The position numbers and the translations under genes are program-made. Of a stretch of 64,000 nucleotides of DNA, positions 26,220 to 37,214 are shown one piece after another. The stretch is from Candidatus Allofournierella merdipullorum (GTDB lineage Bacteria > Bacillota > Clostridia > Oscillospirales > Ruminococcaceae). Within the stretch, counting starts at the first letter, position 1. The number at the start of each line of letters is the position of its first letter. The notes below the pieces were generated by a model. That model was given only the letters and a program-made list of their open reading frames with translations. It was not told where the DNA came from and made no database searches. Where the stretch lies: NCBI GenBank assembly GCA_019116345.1, contig DXBV01000025.1:1-64000 (forward strand), in the 5' to 3' direction.

Positions 26220-27042
26220 CACCGTTCTGAACTATCTGCCCCGCAAGAGCTTCGTTCACGGGCTCACCGGCGCCACCAAGCTGGCGTTTTTCCTGCTGTT
26301 CACCTTTGCCAGCATGATCACCTACGACACCCGGGTGCTCATCGGCCTGATGGCGGTAAGCTTCGCCGCCTTCAAGGCCAGCCGCATCAAGCTGCGGGAA
26401 GTGCGCTTCATGCTGGTGTTCATGCTGGTGTTCCTGATCCTGAACAACGTGTTCATCTATCTGTTCAGCCCGGAGCAGGGCGTGGAAATTTACGGCACCC
26501 GCCACGTCATCGTCACCCTGTTCTGGCGCTACACCATCACCTGGGAGCAGCTGTTCTACACCCTGAACATCTCGCTGAAATACTTCGTGGCGCTGCCGGT
26601 GGCCATCCTGTTCATCTCCGCCACCGACCCCAGCGAGTTCGCCGCCAGCCTCAACCGCATCGGCGTGTCCTACCGGGTGGGCTACTCGGTGGCCATCGCC
26701 CTGCGCTACATCCCCGACATCCAGCGGGACTACCACAGCATCAGCCAGGCCCAGCAGGCCCGGGGCGTGGAGCTGGGCAAGAGCGAAAAGCTCAGCGCCC
26801 GGCTGAAAAACTCGGTGAACATCCTCTTGCCCCTCATCCTCTCCAGCCTGGCCCGCATCGACACCATCAGCAACGCCATGGAGCTGCGGGGCTTCGGCAA
26901 GAAGAAAAAGCGCACCTGGTACGTCCAGCGGCCCTTCGCCCGGAACGATTATCTTGTGCTGGCTCTGGGCGTGGCCCTGCTGCTGGCCAGCCTGGTCATC
27001 ACCTTCTGGGACGGCGACCGCTTCTTCAACCCCTTTGTTTGA
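26209..27042 (+). CDS. ECF transporter T component
   Basis: Polytopic; QARGVELGKSEKLSARLKNSVNILLPLILSSLARIDTISNAMELRGFG (A-R-G motifs). Confidence 0.93.
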   Translation: MAANTVLNYLPRKSFVHGLTGATKLAFFLLFTFASMITYDTRVLIGLMAVSFAAFKASRIKLREVRFMLVFMLVFLILNNVFIYLFSPEQGVEIYGTRHVIVTLFWRYTITWEQLFYTLNISLKYFVALPVAILFISATDPSEFAASLNRIGVSYRVGYSVAIALRYIPDIQRDYHSISQAQQARGVELGKSEKLSARLKNSVNILLPLILSSLARIDTISNAMELRGFGKKKKRTWYVQRPFARNDYLVLALGVALLLASLVITFWDGDRFFNPFV

Positions 27043-27057
27043 CCCTTTGACGCAATC

Positions 27058-27107
27058 AAAAACAGCCCTTCGCCCCGGCGCAGTGCCGCAAGCGAAGGGC
27101 TGTTTTT
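27058..27107. terminator. Bidirectional terminator
   Basis: aaaaacagcccttcgc...gcgaagggctgttttt. Confidence 0.85.
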
Positions 27108-27111
27108 CTGT

Positions 27112-27822
27112 TCAGTCGCACCGGAGCAGGGCAAGGCTCAGATCGTCCTCGCTCACCCGGGAGAACACCTCCCGCAGATTGTGCTCCAGCGCCTCGGCGG
27201 CCTCCTCCTCGGTGCAGCGGGCGAACCCCTCGCACAGCCGCTTCACCGCGGCGGCGGGCCGGCCGGCGGCGGCGTCGTAGAGCGCGTCGCCGCAGCCGTC
27301 GCTGGTGAGCAGGAGGGTGGTGGGGCCCGTCTCCCGGCGGCGCAGCACCCGCAGATGCTCCTCGGCGCAGGGGCCGCTGAAAAAGTAGGTCTCGTTGGCG
27401 TAGCGGCCGTTCTCCGGCAGCGAGAGCGCCTCGCCGGCGGAAAAGACATAGCCGTCGCCGATGTGCAGCACCAGCAGCCGGCCGTCCCGGTGGCGGACGG
27501 CGCACAGCAGGGTGCAGTAGGCCTCCTGCCGGTCAAGGCCGGTGGCGTCCAGCCGTTCCAGACCCGCCTCCAGTACCCGCCGGGCCAGCTCCCGGTCCTC
27601 CAGGGCATACAGCTCGTCGAACCGCTGGGGCAGCCAGCGCACCGCCCAGCCGCAGAGCGCCCGGGCGGCCACCTCCGAGCGGGGGCAGCTGCCCGCGCCG
27701 TCGCACACCGCTGCCACGGCCCAGTCGCCGGTGTGCAGCGCCTTTGCCTCGTCCTGGCAGGGCACGCCCCGCACCTGGTGGGACAGCCCCCGGTACACCG
27801 CCGCCGCCGTTTTCATCGCCAT
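27112..27822 (-). CDS. PP2C-family Ser/Thr phosphatase (TerY-P-like triad component)
   Basis: GVPCQDEAKALHTGDWAVAAVCDGAGSCPRSEVAA; LLLTSDGCGDALYD; SEDDLSLALLR. Confidence 0.88.
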   Translation of the reverse strand: MAMKTAAAVYRGLSHQVRGVPCQDEAKALHTGDWAVAAVCDGAGSCPRSEVAARALCGWAVRWLPQRFDELYALEDRELARRVLEAGLERLDATGLDRQEAYCTLLCAVRHRDGRLLVLHIGDGYVFSAGEALSLPENGRYANETYFFSGPCAEEHLRVLRRRETGPTTLLLTSDGCGDALYDAAAGRPAAAVKRLCEGFARCTEEEAAEALEHNLREVFSRVSEDDLSLALLRCD

Positions 27823-27847: not shown

Positions 27848-28540
27848 TCAGTTCTGACCCCCGTCGGACTCCAGTTCAAAGCTCGGGTGCTCGATGGTCT
27901 GCTTGCTGGCCAGGCTGACGCTGCGGCTCACAAGGTTGAAAAAGTCGATCACCGACAATTCCTCCAGCCGCTCCACCTTCTCCACGGTGAAGTGCTGCAG
28001 GCTCTTGTAGCCCTCGCCCATGCTCAGGCAGCGGGTGCGCAGGCGGTTGTCACGCAAAAGGGCGTGCACCCGCTCCGCCGCCCTGCGCACCTCCGTCTCC
28101 GGCTCGGTGGAGACGCCGTCGCTCAGAATCACCAGCCAGGGCACAAAGGCGTTGTTGCCCACCTCTGCCAGCTCCCGCTGGTGGCTCTCCAGCCGGTCCA
28201 GGGCGCAGTTGACCCCCTCCGCCAGGCGGGTGAGGGTGCCGGTGGCCCGGATGGGGCTGCGCAGCACCTTTTCGCAGGCGGCGTCGAAGGCGCCGAAGTC
28301 GCAGACCACCTCCGCCCGGTCGCCGAAGGTGACGATGCACACGTCGGCGGCGTCCCGGGCGAGGATCTCGGAATGGGTGCGGCGGAAGAAGTTCTCGATG
28401 CCCTGGTTCACCTTGTCGATCATGCCGCTCACCGCCATGGAGGCGGAGACGTCCACGCAGAAGCACAGCAGGATGCGCTTGCTGCGGTTGCTGCTGAGTT
28501 CTTCCTGTTTGACATACATTTCCAGGATCTTCTTGTCCAT
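27848..28540 (-). CDS. vWA domain protein, TerY-like (triad component)
   Basis: ILLCFCVDVSASMAVSGMIDKVNQGIENFF (DxSxS MIDAS), VTFGDRAEVV, WLVILSDGVSTEP. Confidence 0.88.
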   Translation of the reverse strand: MDKKILEMYVKQEELSSNRSKRILLCFCVDVSASMAVSGMIDKVNQGIENFFRRTHSEILARDAADVCIVTFGDRAEVVCDFGAFDAACEKVLRSPIRATGTLTRLAEGVNCALDRLESHQRELAEVGNNAFVPWLVILSDGVSTEPETEVRRAAERVHALLRDNRLRTRCLSMGEGYKSLQHFTVEKVERLEELSVIDFFNLVSRSVSLASKQTIEHPSFELESDGGQN

Positions 28541-28571
28541 GATTTATCCTTTCCGGGCGCATTGCCCCGTC

Positions 28572-31500
28572 TCAAAAGAAGTTGCCGCCCCGGTGATAGC
28601 ACCGGTCGCACAGCAGAGGCCTTTTGTTTCGCCGCGCGCCGATGACCACGCCCCTGCGCGTCTGGAAGTTCCGGCCGCAGCGGTCGCAGCGGGCGATGGG
28701 CGTCTCGGCGGTCTTGCACCGCTCACACAGCGGCACCCAGCCGTTGTTCTCCATGCTCCAGCGCTGCTGCACGGTCACCTCCATCGGCGCGCCGCAGCAG
28801 GCGCAGGGCACGGGGGAGGCGGCGCAGCTTTCGCAGAGGTACATCCCGTCGGGGCCGGGAACGTTCCCGTCGTGATAGAACACCTGGCGGATGGTGGGCA
28901 CAAAGCTCCTGCCGCAGGCGACGCACCGCGCCGTCTCGCCCGCCGGCTCCTTGCCGTGGAGGCTGATGAAGCGGCGGCAGGTGCGGCAGAACAGGGCGTC
29001 CTTGCGCTTGGCAGAGCCGGGCGCGGTGAGTTCGGCATAGGTGTTTTTGCCGATGTTGAACTCCCGGTGGCCGCACAGCGCGCTGGGGCAGCGCACATCC
29101 ACAAAGAAGGGGTCCTCGCGGTTGTATTCGTGAAATTTCACCGGGAACAGCTCATTGGTGAACACACCGCCCTCCACCAGTTCCAGATAGCGGTGGAGCA
29201 CATTGGCCCACTGACCGGCGCTGCAGGGCTTCCACTCGGTGAAGGCGGCGGCGAAGGCCGTGGTCACGGCGAAGGTCAGGTTCTTCCAGATCATCAAGTT
29301 GTCGCCGTCCGGCACATCGTCGGGGTTGCCCGTGTCCTTGGGGTAGGGGAACTTGCGCTCTCGCATGCAGGTAAGGAAGTCCTTTTCACCCTTGTTCACA
29401 AAGGGGTTCTGGCCGCAGAGCAGGATCTCAAAGAGCAGCACCGCCAGCGAGAACCGCTCCTCCTCCAGGCCGCGCAGCAGGGTGCCGTAGCGCACCTGGC
29501 CCCGGGGCCGGGCCACGTTTTGGCCGTTCACGGTCACAAAGGGGCAGGTGAACTCGTCGGTGCCCACCGGGCAGGGGTAGCCGTCGAACTGGTAGCTGTC
29601 GGTGTCCACCAGAAAGACGCTGCCGCTGTTGGTCAGGTCCACCATCACGTTGCCGGCGTTTACGTCGCCCATGAGGATGTTTTTCCGGTGCAGCCGCTCC
29701 ATCAGCTGCGCCAGCCGCATCGCCACCCGGATCAGGTCCCGCCGGGTCCAGCCGCTCATCAGCTCGTCGTGCACCGCCCGGCCGCCGATCTTCAGCACCG
29801 TTTTGGACAGGGGCATCGCCCCTTTGGGGGCCCGGGGCATCAGATAGCCCACAAACTGCCCCTGCTCATTTTTCAGCAGGTGCACCGGCCAGCACACCCC
29901 CGGGATGCGGGGGTCGTGGGCCAGCATGGTGCGCAGTTTTTCCTGCCGCTGGGCCGTCAGCTGGCCGGGGTGGTAGATCTTCGCCACCAGCCCGGGGAAC
30001 TGCTCGCACAGGTAGATGACGCCCTCGCCGCCCCGGGCCGTCTCGCCGCCCTCGGTGAGCGGCTCGCCCAGGCGCACCCGCTGCCCCTCTTCGGTGAGCA
30101 GCTCATCCCCCGGCTGCACCGGCCGGTCCAGCTCCAGAGATGCGTCGCCGGGGCTGCGCAGGGCGGGGCGGGAGGGGAACCGCTCGGAGACCGCCGGCTC
30201 CTCCGCGGGCTGCTGGGAGAGGGGCGCGGCTTCGGGCTGCGCCTCCACCAGCCGGTCCAGTTCGCCCAGCACATCCTTTTTCCGCCAGTTGGCCCGCTGG
30301 GCCGCGTCCAGGGCCTGGCGGTACATCCGGTCGGTCTTCTGCCGCAGCTGCTTCAGCAGGGGAGAATCCTGCTCCGCGGCGGCAAAGGGCAGGCAGCTGC
30401 GGAACACCCGGCAGCTCCACTCCTCCGCCTCGACGCCCGCCGGGTCCCGGCTGACCCGGGCCACCACCGCGAAGGGGGTCTTTTCCCGGTCCAGCCGCTG
30501 GGGCAGGCCGGTGGGGCCGGCGGTGAGCACACAGATGCGCTCAAAGCAGCGGTCCTCCAGAAAGTCCGCCAGCGCCTCCTCGTCGCTGCGGCCCGGGTCG
30601 GGATAGCCCGTGGGCCCCAGCTGCAGGCTGTTGCGCACAAAGACATAGGCGTTTTTGCTGGGCGTCAGCGCCTCCCGGCGCTTTTGCAGCTCTTCCAGCT
30701 CCGCGCGGCGGCTGTCGTCGCCCAGGCAGGCCAGCATCTGCTTGTAGATGGCGGAGCGCTGCTCGGTGTCCCGCATGAGGTGGTAGAGGGTGGTGGCCTC
30801 CACCATCAGCGCCTGGCGGGGGTCGCGTCCGGCCAGGCGGATGGCGTCGGTCAGCGGGCCTTCCACAAAGCGGCGCTCGCTGTCCCGCCGGAGCAGGCTG
30901 CCGTCCAGCACAAAGCGGTGGGTGGCGGCCAGTTCCAGCAGCGCGCGCCGGTCCAGCGCGCCGCCCGCGTACTCCTTCAGCCCCTCCAGCGGCTGCACGG
31001 CGGCCAGCTTCTGGGTAAACAGCTGGTCCTGCACGCTCTGCCAGCTGGCTTCGCTCTTGTCTTTCAGCAGCAGCTCCTGGCGCACCTTTTCCAGTTCCGC
31101 CTGCAATTCCCGATTGCGCTGCTCGCTCTGGCGGGCGCCGACGTATTCGCCGATCTTGGCGATCAGCTCCTCTTCCACGCCGCAGCAGACTCCCTTCTCC
31201 ACCTCGATGCGGGCGCTTTTCAGCGCCGCCAGCACCTCGGTCTCATCGCAGCCGGTGCGGGCCTGCAGGGCCTCCACCGAAATGAGCTTCAGCGCCTTGG
31301 CCCGCGCAAGGCAGGCGGCGAGGCGGTCCGCCTGGGCCCGCAGCTGTTCCACCCACAGGGTGTTCAGCAGCGACTGCATGGTCTCGATGCCTTCCTCCCA
31401 TTCCTTCTGGGACATCTTGGCAAAGATTTGGCCGTTGTCGTGGCCGAGCCAGGCGTTGCGCACCTCGCTGCCCCGGTTGTTCAGCTTCTTCCAGCGGGTC

Positions 31501-32006
31501 TTCTGCTCGGCGTCGTCGCCGGCGTAAAGCGCCCGCAGCCCGTCCGGGCAGGCCCGCTTCACCAGCGGGAACACGTCGTAGCTCTCCGGCTCCAGGTCGC
31601 CCAGCAGCGACCCCACCTTCAAAAGGCCCGCCAGGTCAAAGCAGCGGATGATGCGCTGCCGGTCCTCGGCGGAGAACCGGCCCCGCAATTCTCTTTTGAT
31701 ACGGGCGGTGTACTCCGCGCCGGAGGCCCGGTTCAGCTCCCACAACCGCAGGCCCAACTGGGTCTCCAGGCTTCTGCGGTCCAGCACCGCCGGGAAATTA
31801 TTGTCCCGCCGGGCATCGTCCTTTTTGCGGTTGTTCTTCTCCACGCAGGCCCGGAAAAAGGCCTCGAACTCCGATTCCGGCAAAACGCGCAGATAAAACT
31901 GCTGCAGATACTCCCGCAGCTCTCCCCCCGCCTCGTGGGCGGCCGCCGAGCGGACCCTGGCCTGGGGCCCGGCCCCCGCTTTTTTCATCCCTGCGTTTCC
32001 TTCCAT
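28572..32006 (-). CDS. 1144-aa multidomain kinase: N-terminal HEPN-like/PIN-like region, protein-kinase-like domain, C-terminal zinc ribbons (triad component)
   Basis: Kinase: GGEGVIYLCEQFPGLVAKIYHP, ILMGDVNAGNVMV, VFLVDTDSYQF. C-terminus: repeated CxxC pairs. N-terminus: EVRNAWLGHD (R-x5-H). Confidence 0.85.
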   Translation of the reverse strand: MEGNAGMKKAGAGPQARVRSAAAHEAGGELREYLQQFYLRVLPESEFEAFFRACVEKNNRKKDDARRDNNFPAVLDRRSLETQLGLRLWELNRASGAEYTARIKRELRGRFSAEDRQRIIRCFDLAGLLKVGSLLGDLEPESYDVFPLVKRACPDGLRALYAGDDAEQKTRWKKLNNRGSEVRNAWLGHDNGQIFAKMSQKEWEEGIETMQSLLNTLWVEQLRAQADRLAACLARAKALKLISVEALQARTGCDETEVLAALKSARIEVEKGVCCGVEEELIAKIGEYVGARQSEQRNRELQAELEKVRQELLLKDKSEASWQSVQDQLFTQKLAAVQPLEGLKEYAGGALDRRALLELAATHRFVLDGSLLRRDSERRFVEGPLTDAIRLAGRDPRQALMVEATTLYHLMRDTEQRSAIYKQMLACLGDDSRRAELEELQKRREALTPSKNAYVFVRNSLQLGPTGYPDPGRSDEEALADFLEDRCFERICVLTAGPTGLPQRLDREKTPFAVVARVSRDPAGVEAEEWSCRVFRSCLPFAAAEQDSPLLKQLRQKTDRMYRQALDAAQRANWRKKDVLGELDRLVEAQPEAAPLSQQPAEEPAVSERFPSRPALRSPGDASLELDRPVQPGDELLTEEGQRVRLGEPLTEGGETARGGEGVIYLCEQFPGLVAKIYHPGQLTAQRQEKLRTMLAHDPRIPGVCWPVHLLKNEQGQFVGYLMPRAPKGAMPLSKTVLKIGGRAVHDELMSGWTRRDLIRVAMRLAQLMERLHRKNILMGDVNAGNVMVDLTNSGSVFLVDTDSYQFDGYPCPVGTDEFTCPFVTVNGQNVARPRGQVRYGTLLRGLEEERFSLAVLLFEILLCGQNPFVNKGEKDFLTCMRERKFPYPKDTGNPDDVPDGDNLMIWKNLTFAVTTAFAAAFTEWKPCSAGQWANVLHRYLELVEGGVFTNELFPVKFHEYNREDPFFVDVRCPSALCGHREFNIGKNTYAELTAPGSAKRKDALFCRTCRRFISLHGKEPAGETARCVACGRSFVPTIRQVFYHDGNVPGPDGMYLCESCAASPVPCACCGAPMEVTVQQRWSMENNGWVPLCERCKTAETPIARCDRCGRNFQTRRGVVIGARRNKRPLLCDRCYHRGGNFF

Positions 32007-32102
32007 TTTTCATGACCTCCTGACGGGTCGCTGCCCCTTTGCGCGTTTTTTGCTTTTTTCATTATACTGCAACCAAAAGCAGCATTTCAACGAGCGCCCC
32101 GC

Positions 32103-32255: not shown

Positions 32256-32286
32256 AAATACGTCTTTGACGCAAGGAGGAAAAACC

Positions 32287-34335
32287 ATGTATCGTTATGA
32301 AGATCTCATGCTGGACGACCTGCTGGAGGACCCTTCCTTTGATGAGGACGATCCCGAAGTTCTGTACGCCCTGGCCCGGTGCTATCTGGAGGGCAAGGGC
32401 GTTGCGGCCGACGAGGCCATCTATCGGAAATTTCTGAAAAAAGCCGCCGACGCGGGCAGCAAGACCGCCCGCCTGGAGCTGGAAGCCGCCGCGCCGGCGC
32501 AGCCCGACGAGCCCAAAGAGGCGGGCGACGCCTGCCTGGATGAGGCCGCCCTGTGCCGGTCGAAAGGTGACATCTCCGGCGAGATCGCCGCTTTGGAGCG
32601 GGCGTGGGCCACGCCCGGGCGCTACAGCCCGGAGCAGGCCCAGGCCATCAACCTGCGGCTGGGCGAGCTTTACTCCCAGCCCGGCCCCTGGGAGGCGCCG
32701 GAGCGCAGCTACGCCAGCTACTGCACCGCCGTTGAGATGGGCAGCAGCGTCGCCCCGCTCCGCTGCGCGGACTGTCTGCGCCGGGGCTACGGCTGCACCG
32801 CCAGCGAGAGCGACAGCCGGGCGATGATCCTGCTGGCCGCCCAGCGGGGGCCGGCCCGTCTGAAGTACGACACCGCCCTGGACATACTGGACAGCACCCC
32901 CGGCGAGGCGCTTCTGCTCCTGGACAAGGCGCAGGAAGAACTGGAAAGCGACGGGGGCAACGAGCCTCTGCTGCGCCGGGTGCGGCTGCATCTGGCGGCG
33001 CTGAAAAACGGCGGCTGCCTGCCGGAGGAGATGGTGGCGGCGGCGCTGGCGGAAACGGAGGACCCCTCGGTGACCTCGCTGCTGCTGGCCACCTTCACCC
33101 GGCAGCCCCGGCTCATCACCCAGGCCGTATCCCCCTTCGTGAGCCGCATGGCCCGCCAGCCCGGCAAAGACCAGCCGGGCTGGCTGAACCTTGCCGCCGA
33201 CCTGGGCGACGCCTATGCCCGCGAGGAGCTGAAGCGCCGCAATATGGCGGACTTTGCCCGCATCATCCGGGAGGAGCCGCAGGCCGAACCGCTGCCTCCG
33301 GAGACGGACGCGGCCGGCCCCGCTCCGCAGCCCGGCCCCGCCTGGCCGGGGCTGCCGACCCTCACGCCCGAACAGGCGGCCCGGCGCAAACGGCAGGACC
33401 GCATTGCCCGGCGCATCAGCGTGGTGCTGGCGGTGCTCTTTGTGGCGTTCATCTTCCTGGGGCCGACGGTCACCCGCTTGTTTTCCTCCGAACAGATGCC
33501 GGATATGCTGAACAGCCTGTCCGCCAACAACACCACCCTTGCCCGGCGCACCACCTACTCCTATGACGAGGACGCCTTCGCCCAGAAGCAGGGGGGCACC
33601 TTCAACACCGGCGAGAGCTACGACAGCGCTCTCTATGCCTCCACCAGCTACAACGCGGTGGAGTACCAGCTGGAAGGGAAGTACGACACGCTGACCGGCC
33701 GCTGGGGCATCGACTCGAACTTCATCAACACCACCTGCCAGAGCAGCTTTTCGGTGTATGCCGACGGCCGGTGCGTCTATGAGTCGCCGGTCATCACCGG
33801 CGGCAGCGCCCCCTGCGACGTGGAGGTGGATGTGACCGGCTGCAACCTGCTGACCATCATCTTCCAGGGCGCCGACGGCTCCGCCCGGTTCGCCGACGCG
33901 GAACTGGAAAACCGCTCGGGGGTCAAAACGCCCGCCGACGCCCTGCCGGAGCTGGCGCCCGGCGCCTGGCTGAGCGGCATGAACCTGATGCAGGGTGATT
34001 TCTACTCCGGCGACAGCGGCCACTCGGTGAGCACCAGTATTTACAGTTATGACTCGGCGGAGACCTTTGCCACCTTCTATCTGGGCGGGGAATACGAGAG
34101 CCTCAGCGCCGTACTGGAGGTGTCGGCCAGCGCCCCCATGTATCTGGAGGTGTACGGCGATGATGAGCTGCTCGCCTCCAGCGAACCCATGGCCAACGGC
34201 AGCGTGCCTTTCTCGGCGGATCTGAAGGGCTGCCAGCAGCTCACGGTCCGGTTCTGCCTTAGCGACTCCGACGCTGCCGCCTACGGCGGCTCCATCACTC
34301 TGGCGGGGGCCCGGCTGTCCCGCAATCCGCTGTGA
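32287..34335 (+). CDS. Sel1-like repeat membrane protein with C-terminal NPCBM-like domains
   Basis: ALARCYLEGKGVAADEAIYRKFLKKAADAGSKTARLEL; one TM (ISVVLAVLFVAFIFLGPTVTRLF); YNAVEYQLEGKYDTLTGRWGID..FSVYADGRCVYESPVITGGSAPCDVEVDVTGCNLLTI. Confidence 0.75.
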   Translation: MYRYEDLMLDDLLEDPSFDEDDPEVLYALARCYLEGKGVAADEAIYRKFLKKAADAGSKTARLELEAAAPAQPDEPKEAGDACLDEAALCRSKGDISGEIAALERAWATPGRYSPEQAQAINLRLGELYSQPGPWEAPERSYASYCTAVEMGSSVAPLRCADCLRRGYGCTASESDSRAMILLAAQRGPARLKYDTALDILDSTPGEALLLLDKAQEELESDGGNEPLLRRVRLHLAALKNGGCLPEEMVAAALAETEDPSVTSLLLATFTRQPRLITQAVSPFVSRMARQPGKDQPGWLNLAADLGDAYAREELKRRNMADFARIIREEPQAEPLPPETDAAGPAPQPGPAWPGLPTLTPEQAARRKRQDRIARRISVVLAVLFVAFIFLGPTVTRLFSSEQMPDMLNSLSANNTTLARRTTYSYDEDAFAQKQGGTFNTGESYDSALYASTSYNAVEYQLEGKYDTLTGRWGIDSNFINTTCQSSFSVYADGRCVYESPVITGGSAPCDVEVDVTGCNLLTIIFQGADGSARFADAELENRSGVKTPADALPELAPGAWLSGMNLMQGDFYSGDSGHSVSTSIYSYDSAETFATFYLGGEYESLSAVLEVSASAPMYLEVYGDDELLASSEPMANGSVPFSADLKGCQQLTVRFCLSDSDAAAYGGSITLAGARLSRNPL

Positions 34336-35547: not shown

Positions 35548-36168
35548 ATGAAACGAGTTTATATCACTGCCGTCCCGCTGGACAGCAACTTCGCCATCCA
35601 GCGCCAGACGGCGCTGCCCGCCAACTACACCGCCCACCACCCGCCCCGGGCGGCCTATTACCCCATCGTGCCCGTTATTGAGGACACCGCCCGCCCCGGA
35701 GACGAGGTGCGGGTGATCGCCGTGCGCCAGACCAACGCGCCCCACAGCGAGAACCTGGAGATCTTCCGCCGGGAGCTGGAGGAGCTGGGCCTGCCCTTCA
35801 CCCTCACCGACCTGACGGTGCCGGAGACCCAGCAGAAGAACGCCCTGCTGGACCTGTTCGAGGCCCTCACCGGCTGCATGGAGCCGGACGCCTGCTACTA
35901 CGCCTGCGTCACCTTCGGCACCAAGACCTGGCCGCTGGTGCTCTCCTCGGCGCTGCGCTACGCCGAAAAGCTGCTGGACGGCACCGAGGTCAAGGGCGTT
36001 TACTACCGGGAGATCACCCGCAAGGCGGGGGAGCAGACCGGCGTGGCCCAGTACGACGTGAGCGCCCTGTTCACGCTGGATTCCATCATCGACCTGGCCG
36101 CCGGGGCCGGCGTGGAGAATCGGCAGGCCTTTTTGCGGCTGCTGCTGCACCCCGACCGGGAGGCGTGA
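35548..36168 (+). CDS. TM1812/Csx2-like (CARF-fold-like) protein, no obvious effector domain
   Basis: MKRVYITAVPL...YYPIVPVIEDTARPGDEVRVIAVRQ...VPETQQKNALLDLFEALTGCMEPDACYYACVTFGTKTWPLVLSSALRYAEKLLDGTEVKGVYYREI...YDVSALFTLDSII; parallels the TM1812 layout (DITHGFRSLP-like element then GIYYG). Confidence 0.5.
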   Translation: MKRVYITAVPLDSNFAIQRQTALPANYTAHHPPRAAYYPIVPVIEDTARPGDEVRVIAVRQTNAPHSENLEIFRRELEELGLPFTLTDLTVPETQQKNALLDLFEALTGCMEPDACYYACVTFGTKTWPLVLSSALRYAEKLLDGTEVKGVYYREITRKAGEQTGVAQYDVSALFTLDSIIDLAAGAGVENRQAFLRLLLHPDREA

Positions 36169-36170
36169 CC

Positions 36171-37214
36171 ATGACAGAGCAACTGCAAGAACTGGAACGC
36201 CGCATCGAGGAACACCCTCTGTGGCGTCTGCCCGGGGAGCAGCGGCTGCAGGACACCGCCCGCTGGCAGGAGCTGTGGCTGCTGGTGATGCGCCGCAAGG
36301 GGTTCCTGCAAAAGGTGGAGCGCCGGCTGCAAAGCCAGGAGAACGTTCTGGCCGAGGACGAGGACGAACTGCAAAGCGCCCGTTTCAGCGGCGCGGGGCG
36401 GCGTCGGCAGCAGTACGACAGCTGCGCCTTTGCCGAGAGCCTGCGGGCGGCGGTGAAAGGCTACGCCCCCGAAAAAGGCGGTTCGTTCCTTGCCTATTTC
36501 GACGCCATTTACGAAAAAGACCTGCACCGGGCGGCCAACCGGGAACAGGGCCAGCGGCAGGAGAGCGCCCAGCCTCTGACCCGGTGGGAGACGAACCTGT
36601 GGAAAGAGCTTTGCCGCCTGACGGAAAAACGGGGGCTGGACCCCCGGGAGCTGCCCGCCCGCTTTTACGTTGAACTGGCGGACGTGCTGGGCGTGCGTCC
36701 GGAGCAGCTGGAGCGGGTGATCCGCAAGTGCAGCGCCACCCGGTGGATCACCTCGCTGGACCGGGAGGAGGACGACCCTTTGCCCGAGCCGGAGGACCTG
36801 TCCGCCCGCAGTGAGATGGACCGTCTGGAGAGCGTCCAGTTGGTCATGGAGTCCATCGCTCTGTTCGCCGAGCGGGACGCGGCGGAATACCCCCGGCTGT
36901 TCTTCACCACCGACGTGCTGGCGCCCATGCGGGCCCAGGAGCCCACGGTGGACCCCACCGTCTACTGCGCGCTGCTGGAAAAGCAGGAGCCGCTGCTCTG
37001 GGCCCGGGTGTTCCCCCGGGGCTACATCGATTTCGTGTTCCTGCCGCCCCCGGCGCCGGACACCCTGCGCCATCTGCTGGCGGCGCGGATGGGCCACCCG
37101 CTGCAGGATTCCACCATCGCCGCCTTCAAGGAAGTCACCCCGGCGGCGGTGAGCTACCAGCGCAAGCGGTACACCACCGCCATGCGGCTGCTGGCCGCCC
37201 AGCTGCGGGACTGA
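36171..37214 (+). CDS. Divergent sigma-70-like protein with unusual C-terminal extension
   Basis: AESLRAAVKGYAPEKGGSFLAYFDAIYEKDLHR resembles sigma region 2 (DPEKG-FxxYF); WITSLDREEDDPLPEPEDL resembles sigma SLD linker; ATG 3 nt after previous stop. Confidence 0.5.
   Translation: MTEQLQELERRIEEHPLWRLPGEQRLQDTARWQELWLLVMRRKGFLQKVERRLQSQENVLAEDEDELQSARFSGAGRRRQQYDSCAFAESLRAAVKGYAPEKGGSFLAYFDAIYEKDLHRAANREQGQRQESAQPLTRWETNLWKELCRLTEKRGLDPRELPARFYVELADVLGVRPEQLERVIRKCSATRWITSLDREEDDPLPEPEDLSARSEMDRLESVQLVMESIALFAERDAAEYPRLFFTTDVLAPMRAQEPTVDPTVYCALLEKQEPLLWARVFPRGYIDFVFLPPPAPDTLRHLLAARMGHPLQDSTIAAFKEVTPAAVSYQRKRYTTAMRLLAAQLRD

Follow-up and report, generated by a model that had tools for sequence, protein, structure and literature searches.

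A divergent Swt1-type HEPN domain, a candidate ribonuclease, fused to the kinase of a TerY-P-like triad in Candidatus Allofournierella merdipullorum

We asked whether the kinase of a TerY-P-like triad might carry the triad's output within its own polypeptide. TerY-P triads are described as signalling modules tied to nuclease systems, and their kinase-OB versions as stand-alone defence systems (PMC11090510, PMC7699616). No effector of a TerY-P-type phospho-switch is known from the literature searched, which left out the 2012 TerY-P paper (10.1039/c2mb25239b). The window analysed here, the first 64,000 nucleotides of contig DXBV01000025.1, contains three genes that bear on this question:

27112..27822, minus strand: PP2C phosphatase of 236 aa (PF13672, E 1.4e-38)
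27848..28540, minus strand: TerY-like VWA protein of 230 aa with a DxSxS metal motif, VDVSAS (PF13519, E 1.5e-7; PF00092, E 8.9e-7)
28572..32006, minus strand: open reading frame for a 1144-aa protein, arranged as HEPN, wHTH-like domain, coiled stretch, PIN fold, Ser/Thr-kinase-like domain and zinc ribbons

The genes run in the same direction in the order kinase, VWA and PP2C, an order maintained in relatives, and the architecture of the 1144-aa kinase recurs in homologs from other genomes. An open frame of 1331 codons also lies antisense over the kinase gene (28020-32015, plus strand); because conservation tracks the minus-strand frame, we take it to be a high-GC shadow ORF. The parts of the kinase protein, from its N terminus onward, are as follows:

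31353..31973, minus strand: divergent Swt1-type HEPN domain, residues about 12-218 (AlphaFold2 model and hhalign to PF18731 members)
31440..31460, minus strand: HEPN motif R183-N184-A-W-L-G-H189, an R-x5-H (invariant in 11/11 homologs)
31107..31295, minus strand: small domain, likely wHTH-like, residues about 238-300 (VIA-align matches)
30372..30944, minus strand: PIN-fold domain with catalytic acids mostly lost, residues about 355-545 (AlphaFold2, VIA-align and alignment)
29172..30089, minus strand: protein kinase domain, residues about 640-945 (sub-threshold profile matches, phmmer and motif conservation)
28599..29090, minus strand: C-terminal zinc ribbons with CxxC pairs, residues about 973-1136 (conserved cysteines)

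An earlier note on this DNA, made from the letters alone, had read an R-x5-H motif of HEPN type at R183 and H189 and had made that reading depend on conservation of both residues among orthologs. The minus strand of 31380-31475 translates to RGSEVRNAWLGHDNGQIFAKMSQKEWEEGIET, in frame with the 1144-aa ORF (28572-32006), with codons at 31458-31460 for R183 and 31440-31442 for H189, so that translation and reading frame bear out the placement exactly. About eleven HEPN N-termini, mostly from one family, were available for comparison. In an alignment of 11 sequences with 12 to 22% identity to the most divergent member (A7), the motif RN-x(3-5)-H is found in all 11, and the only invariant columns are D124, R183, N184 and H189; an earlier alignment of nine sequences over 300 residues (A3) had A236 in addition to these four. 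Both residues named in the note are thus fixed in every relative. The spacing between them is either R-x4-H, as in Gemmiger (RNDFAH), or R-x5-H, and both lie inside the known HEPN range (PMC3710099).

The PIN-fold domain of the same protein presents a different picture. An AlphaFold2 model of residues 325-560 is a PIN fold (pLDDT 90.7, pTM 0.88), with a best VIA-align match to Utp24 (5yz4; Z 9.5, 132 residues at 3.7 Å), and most of the top VIA-align matches are PIN domains (Utp24, Utp23, AF0591, SMG6 and VapC). The first D of the PIN site is retained in 7 of 10 aligned sequences, D368 having been lost in two of the relatives (L040 and L041); in the window protein a G occupies the third acid position (VLTAG), and at the E position one aligned sequence alone has an acid (L042). 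Since the HEPN residues are invariant and the PIN acids are mostly gone, the HEPN site in this family is constrained and the PIN site is not. In a relative from another genus of the family (L031, 8492-10867, plus strand), a kinase of the same family, together with VWA and PP2C, has an N-terminal stretch with weak matches to PIN_12 and CARF_PIN. Given that this PIN-like stretch directly precedes the same kinase, nuclease-type modules recur at that position. By eye, the acids of the L031 stretch are intact (FIDTCS...ITQDNN), which would make this protein a second triad kinase with a nuclease-like fusion.

The kinase domain keeps its catalytic residues, K676, D781, N786 and D801/D803, which are invariant in relatives. 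Profile matches of the window protein to Pfam PF07714 and to NCBIfam LanL/Bud32 are sub-threshold, phmmer finds VRK1 at E 0.004, and the Pkinase cut-off is reached by two of the relatives (L031 and L034). The CxxC pairs after the kinase are invariant in ten homologs, and the match of this region to DUF7685 is sub-threshold. Within the genus, identity is 42 to 53% for the HEPN domain versus 71 to 76% for the kinase; the HEPN domain is among the faster-diverging parts, and the kinase core is the best conserved.

Our favoured reading, which we hold to be probable though by no means assured, is that this is the kinase of a TerY-P-like triad with an N-terminal Swt1-type HEPN domain, and that the triad controls a candidate HEPN RNase as its output. 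IRE1 and RNase L are precedents for a kinase that gates an RNase of the HEPN class, and it is because of them, and because the parts fit a TerY-P phospho-switch, that we read the output in this way. All eleven relatives conserve the putative RNA-cutting residues, and so it may well be RNA cleavage that the switch turns on or off. The most probable scheme is the following. A TerY-P-like triad kinase would have gained, at its N terminus, a Swt1-type HEPN domain whose R-N-x4-H site is intact; like HEPN enzymes in general, this domain would work as a dimeric ribonuclease, and it would be kept inactive in the resting cell. Upon a trigger, the kinase would switch the phosphorylation state, opposed by PP2C and with the VWA protein as scaffold, and the HEPN RNase would be released. 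The trigger might be read by the zinc ribbons, by the PIN-fold and wHTH modules, or by a neighbouring CARF protein, and the released RNA cleavage could lead to growth arrest or to degradation of foreign RNA. RNA cleavage would then be the phospho-regulated output of the triad, and we infer the RNase activity, its phospho-control, the signal and a role in defence or stress together.

The main rival to RNase output, which we judge unlikely but take seriously, is that the HEPN domain is a sensor that binds to RNA or forms dimers upon it: HEPN and degenerate PIN would form a two-part RNA reader, and phosphorylation by the kinase would itself be the output. Members of HEPN_Swt1 can be inactive, and the HEPN domain of eukaryotic Swt1 has been inferred to be catalytically dead and to bind RNA without cutting it (PMC3710099). 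A sensor would also be consistent with the retention of a PIN domain that is apparently catalytically dead, and with a kinase core that is the best-conserved region. However, a pure binder need not hold R, N and H invariant at 12 to 22% identity, and the motif lost in Swt1 is retained in the HEPN-kinase. A HEPN RNase is our preferred output.

This reading presupposes that the N-terminal domain is a HEPN domain, as the earlier note had proposed from its likeness to Swt1-type members. Single-sequence scans of Pfam, NCBIfam and PADLOC left the domain unnamed, the Pfam scan gave no HEPN model at threshold for any of nine members, and a PDB sequence search with the HEPN profile returned nothing. 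We compared the domain by hhalign with members of HEPN_Swt1 (PF18731) gathered from 199 genomes of the phylum. The nine-sequence HEPN alignment scored 30.8 against these members, with a null of 12.1 ± 2.0 and a maximum of 19.4 over 300 column shuffles; other parts of the kinase protein scored 12 to 16 against the same set. With eleven sequences the score was 44.6 (probability 88.6; null mean 11.8, SD 2.1, maximum 19.8 over 500 shuffles) against a PF18731 set pre-filtered for the RN..H motif, and 32.9 (null maximum 17.9) against the unfiltered set. Masking the R, N and H columns lowered the score to 15.0 with the unfiltered set, which is within the null range, or to 24.7 with the filtered set, and the motif itself therefore carries much of the signal. 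Among shuffles that left the RN..H block intact, 0 of 250 reached the observed scores (maxima of 31.1 and 32.4 versus 32.9 and 44.6). In the register of this alignment, D124-L-A-x-L-L-K lies opposite the D-[IV]-x-x-x-L helix of Swt1. DUF4145 HEPN was also compared, but with only two sequences extracted the result was uninformative. Because the profile score beats the shuffled controls, including those that keep the motif, it is well supported that the triad kinase has, fused at its N terminus, a divergent HEPN domain of Swt1 type, and the resemblance proposed in the note holds.

The structural model agrees with this assignment in part. From the nine-sequence alignment, AlphaFold2 predicts an all-helical domain (pLDDT 91.1, pTM 0.87) with helices at residues 12-41, 44-54, 96-106, 113-120, 125-133, 146-160, 165-187, 193-197, 200-216 and 220-237, the last of which is followed by a small helix-strand domain at 240-299. 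A HEPN motif is expected at the C-end of a helix or in the following loop, before the last helix, and such is its place in the model: R183 and N184 lie at the C-end of the long helix 165-187, and H189 lies in the next loop, before helix 200-216. For the helical stretch that the note had seen behind the motif, the model has helices 193-197 and 200-216. The note had also named a fold other than a HEPN four-helix bundle as a ground for rejection; the model is all-helical and places the motif between the final two bundle helices, but Foldseek and VIA-align searches of the HEPN-domain model against the PDB gave generic helical matches only and returned no HEPN structure. Residues 238-295 resemble MerR-type, excisionase and Par DNA-binding domains by VIA-align, with modest Z values (8csh, Z 5.3 over 49 residues at 2.4 Å; 5i44, Z 4.6; 1z4h, Z 3.8), and a wHTH-like domain is likely at about 238-300.

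We regard it as quite improbable that the domain is an unrelated helical bundle, not HEPN, in which R183, N184, H189 and D124 form a structural or protein-binding site. Helical bundles are common, and Pfam and structure comparison give no HEPN match; but the in-register alignment with HEPN_Swt1, through the D-[LIV]-x-x-L-x-K helix and the RN-W-x-H motif, scores above all shuffled controls. As to the motif on its own, shuffling residues 1-320 yields at least one R-[polar]-x3-5-H match 21.5% of the time, which makes it weak as single-sequence evidence, and the kinase protein does have a second match, R19..H24; its absence from the more distant relatives makes it a built-in control for the conservation of R183 and H189. 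We consider R183/H189 significant because it is invariant across 11 divergent relatives despite that frequency in one sequence. That it is a functionless chance match has a negligible likelihood and is rejected: a random 320-mer of such composition shows the motif 21% of the time, but its invariance in 11/11 relatives, with nearly all other positions variable, contradicts a chance origin.

Beyond the triad, three conserved neighbours lie on the opposite strand:

32266..34335, plus strand: Sel1-repeat/NPCBM protein of 689 aa, a divergent neighbour (PF08305, E 1.6e-21; weak Sel1)
35551..36168, plus strand: stand-alone CARF protein of the CARF2 class (PADLOC CARF2--CARF PDLC01822, E 9.6e-64; Csx1 models)
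36165..37214, plus strand: HTH protein of 349 aa (HTH_Crp_2 matched weakly in three members, at best with E 9.8e-5)

The Sel1/NPCBM, CARF and HTH genes adjoin the triad in most close relatives, and at two loci (L027 and L038) kinase, VWA, PP2C, CARF and HTH genes are co-directional. The Sel1-repeat/NPCBM protein is conserved beside the triad and is diverging fast between genera. For the CARF protein, the PADLOC CARF2 match was decisive; TIGR02221 (TM1812) matches it in 6/6 members, and a CARF_Card1 profile gave no clear assignment. The CARF gene adjoins the triad in six loci, although a search of the draft genome (84% complete) for a Csm1-type Cas10 found none. The HTH gene at 36165-37214 overlaps the upstream CARF gene by 4 bases, and its Crp-type and sigma-like matches are weak; it is possible that it encodes a CARF-linked regulator. 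Inspection of ORFs around the triad revealed neither McrBC nor helicase genes, and no known defence locus was recognised next to it. A more elaborate arrangement, which we put forward as a doubtful possibility, is a two-input, non-CRISPR RNA-cutting switch in which CARF would sense a cyclic nucleotide, the triad would set phosphorylation, and both would gate the kinase-borne HEPN RNase, a bacterial arrangement working in the manner of IRE1 and RNase L.

The distribution of the system is patchy. A genome search brought up close orthologs in two congeneric genomes and in further genera of the family, and a profile scan of GTDB contigs recovered relatives in Candidatus Fournierella, uncultured Pygmaiobacter, Ruthenibacterium, Gemmiger and Solobacterium, with one more member of the order recovered by the N-terminal profile. 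Strong matches were present in 8 of 396 family genomes, some of them to the kinase region only. The HEPN profile found the window's own copy alone among 398 phylum genomes and one more among 394 order genomes, and we therefore consider the domain rare. A scan of genome contigs with the single protein and a scan of viral contigs gave no relatives. By tblastn against phages and plasmids, no record had one place covering 80% of the kinase protein, and the matches listed fall in the kinase and zinc-ribbon part. Two congeners without the triad share the adjacent ECF transporter cassette at 92 to 94% identity up to 27036-27042, where congener identity ends with the end of EcfT; the left edge of the triad cassette is correspondingly sharp (27036-27112 of the window). 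The triad cassette is accessory. One genome (G323) has two different copies of the system on separate contigs (L029/L039 versus L028/L037).

Here the triad kinase is physically joined to a candidate RNase in which two residues are singled out for mutation, and the output of the triad switch thereby becomes directly testable. The protein would also give bacteria an example of a kinase–HEPN nuclease fusion, to be set beside IRE1 and RNase L, and it would mirror Swt1, with HEPN kept and PIN decayed. Moreover, the conserved CARF neighbour would tie phospho-signalling to immune sensors of the cyclic-nucleotide type.

Among known systems, TerY-P is the nearest for the triad: VWA, PP2C and a kinase with C-terminal zinc ribbons are encoded together, and the description in PMC11090510 fits, the Ser/Thr kinase of TerY-P having either a zinc ribbon or an OB-fold at its C terminus. 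Unlike TerY-P, the kinase here bears an N-terminal extension of about 550 residues (HEPN, wHTH and PIN), and the locus has Sel1/NPCBM and CARF neighbours. The PADLOC kinase model STK_OB gives no close match to the window kinase (E 0.063 only), and for this reason we file the triad as TerY-P-like and not as the TerY-P system of Gao et al. Swt1 and bacterial HEPN_Swt1 proteins, such as those of the Ava_2192-type HEPN-AAA+ architecture, share with it the RN-x(3-4)-H motif, the preceding D-x-x-x-L helix and a following helix in register. Eukaryotic Swt1 likewise joins HEPN with PIN; however, its active nuclease is the PIN domain (PMC3710099), whereas in the window protein it is HEPN that retains its motif and PIN whose acids are mostly gone, ahead of a kinase. 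IRE1 and RNase L also combine a protein kinase and a HEPN-class RNase in one polypeptide, a likeness that would extend to function should the window kinase likewise gate its RNase. They are eukaryotic, their KEN domain belongs to another HEPN family and comes after the kinase in the polypeptide, and they lack VWA and PP2C partners. The resemblance is one of analogy only; KEN is itself classed as HEPN (PMC3710099). Type II and III-A CoCoNuT systems (PMC11090510) likewise pair a TerY-P triad with neighbouring HEPN RNases, and some of them with CARF proteins as well, but their HEPN domain resides in a separate protein, CnuE, with McrBC/helicase partners, whereas in the present system it is fused to the kinase.
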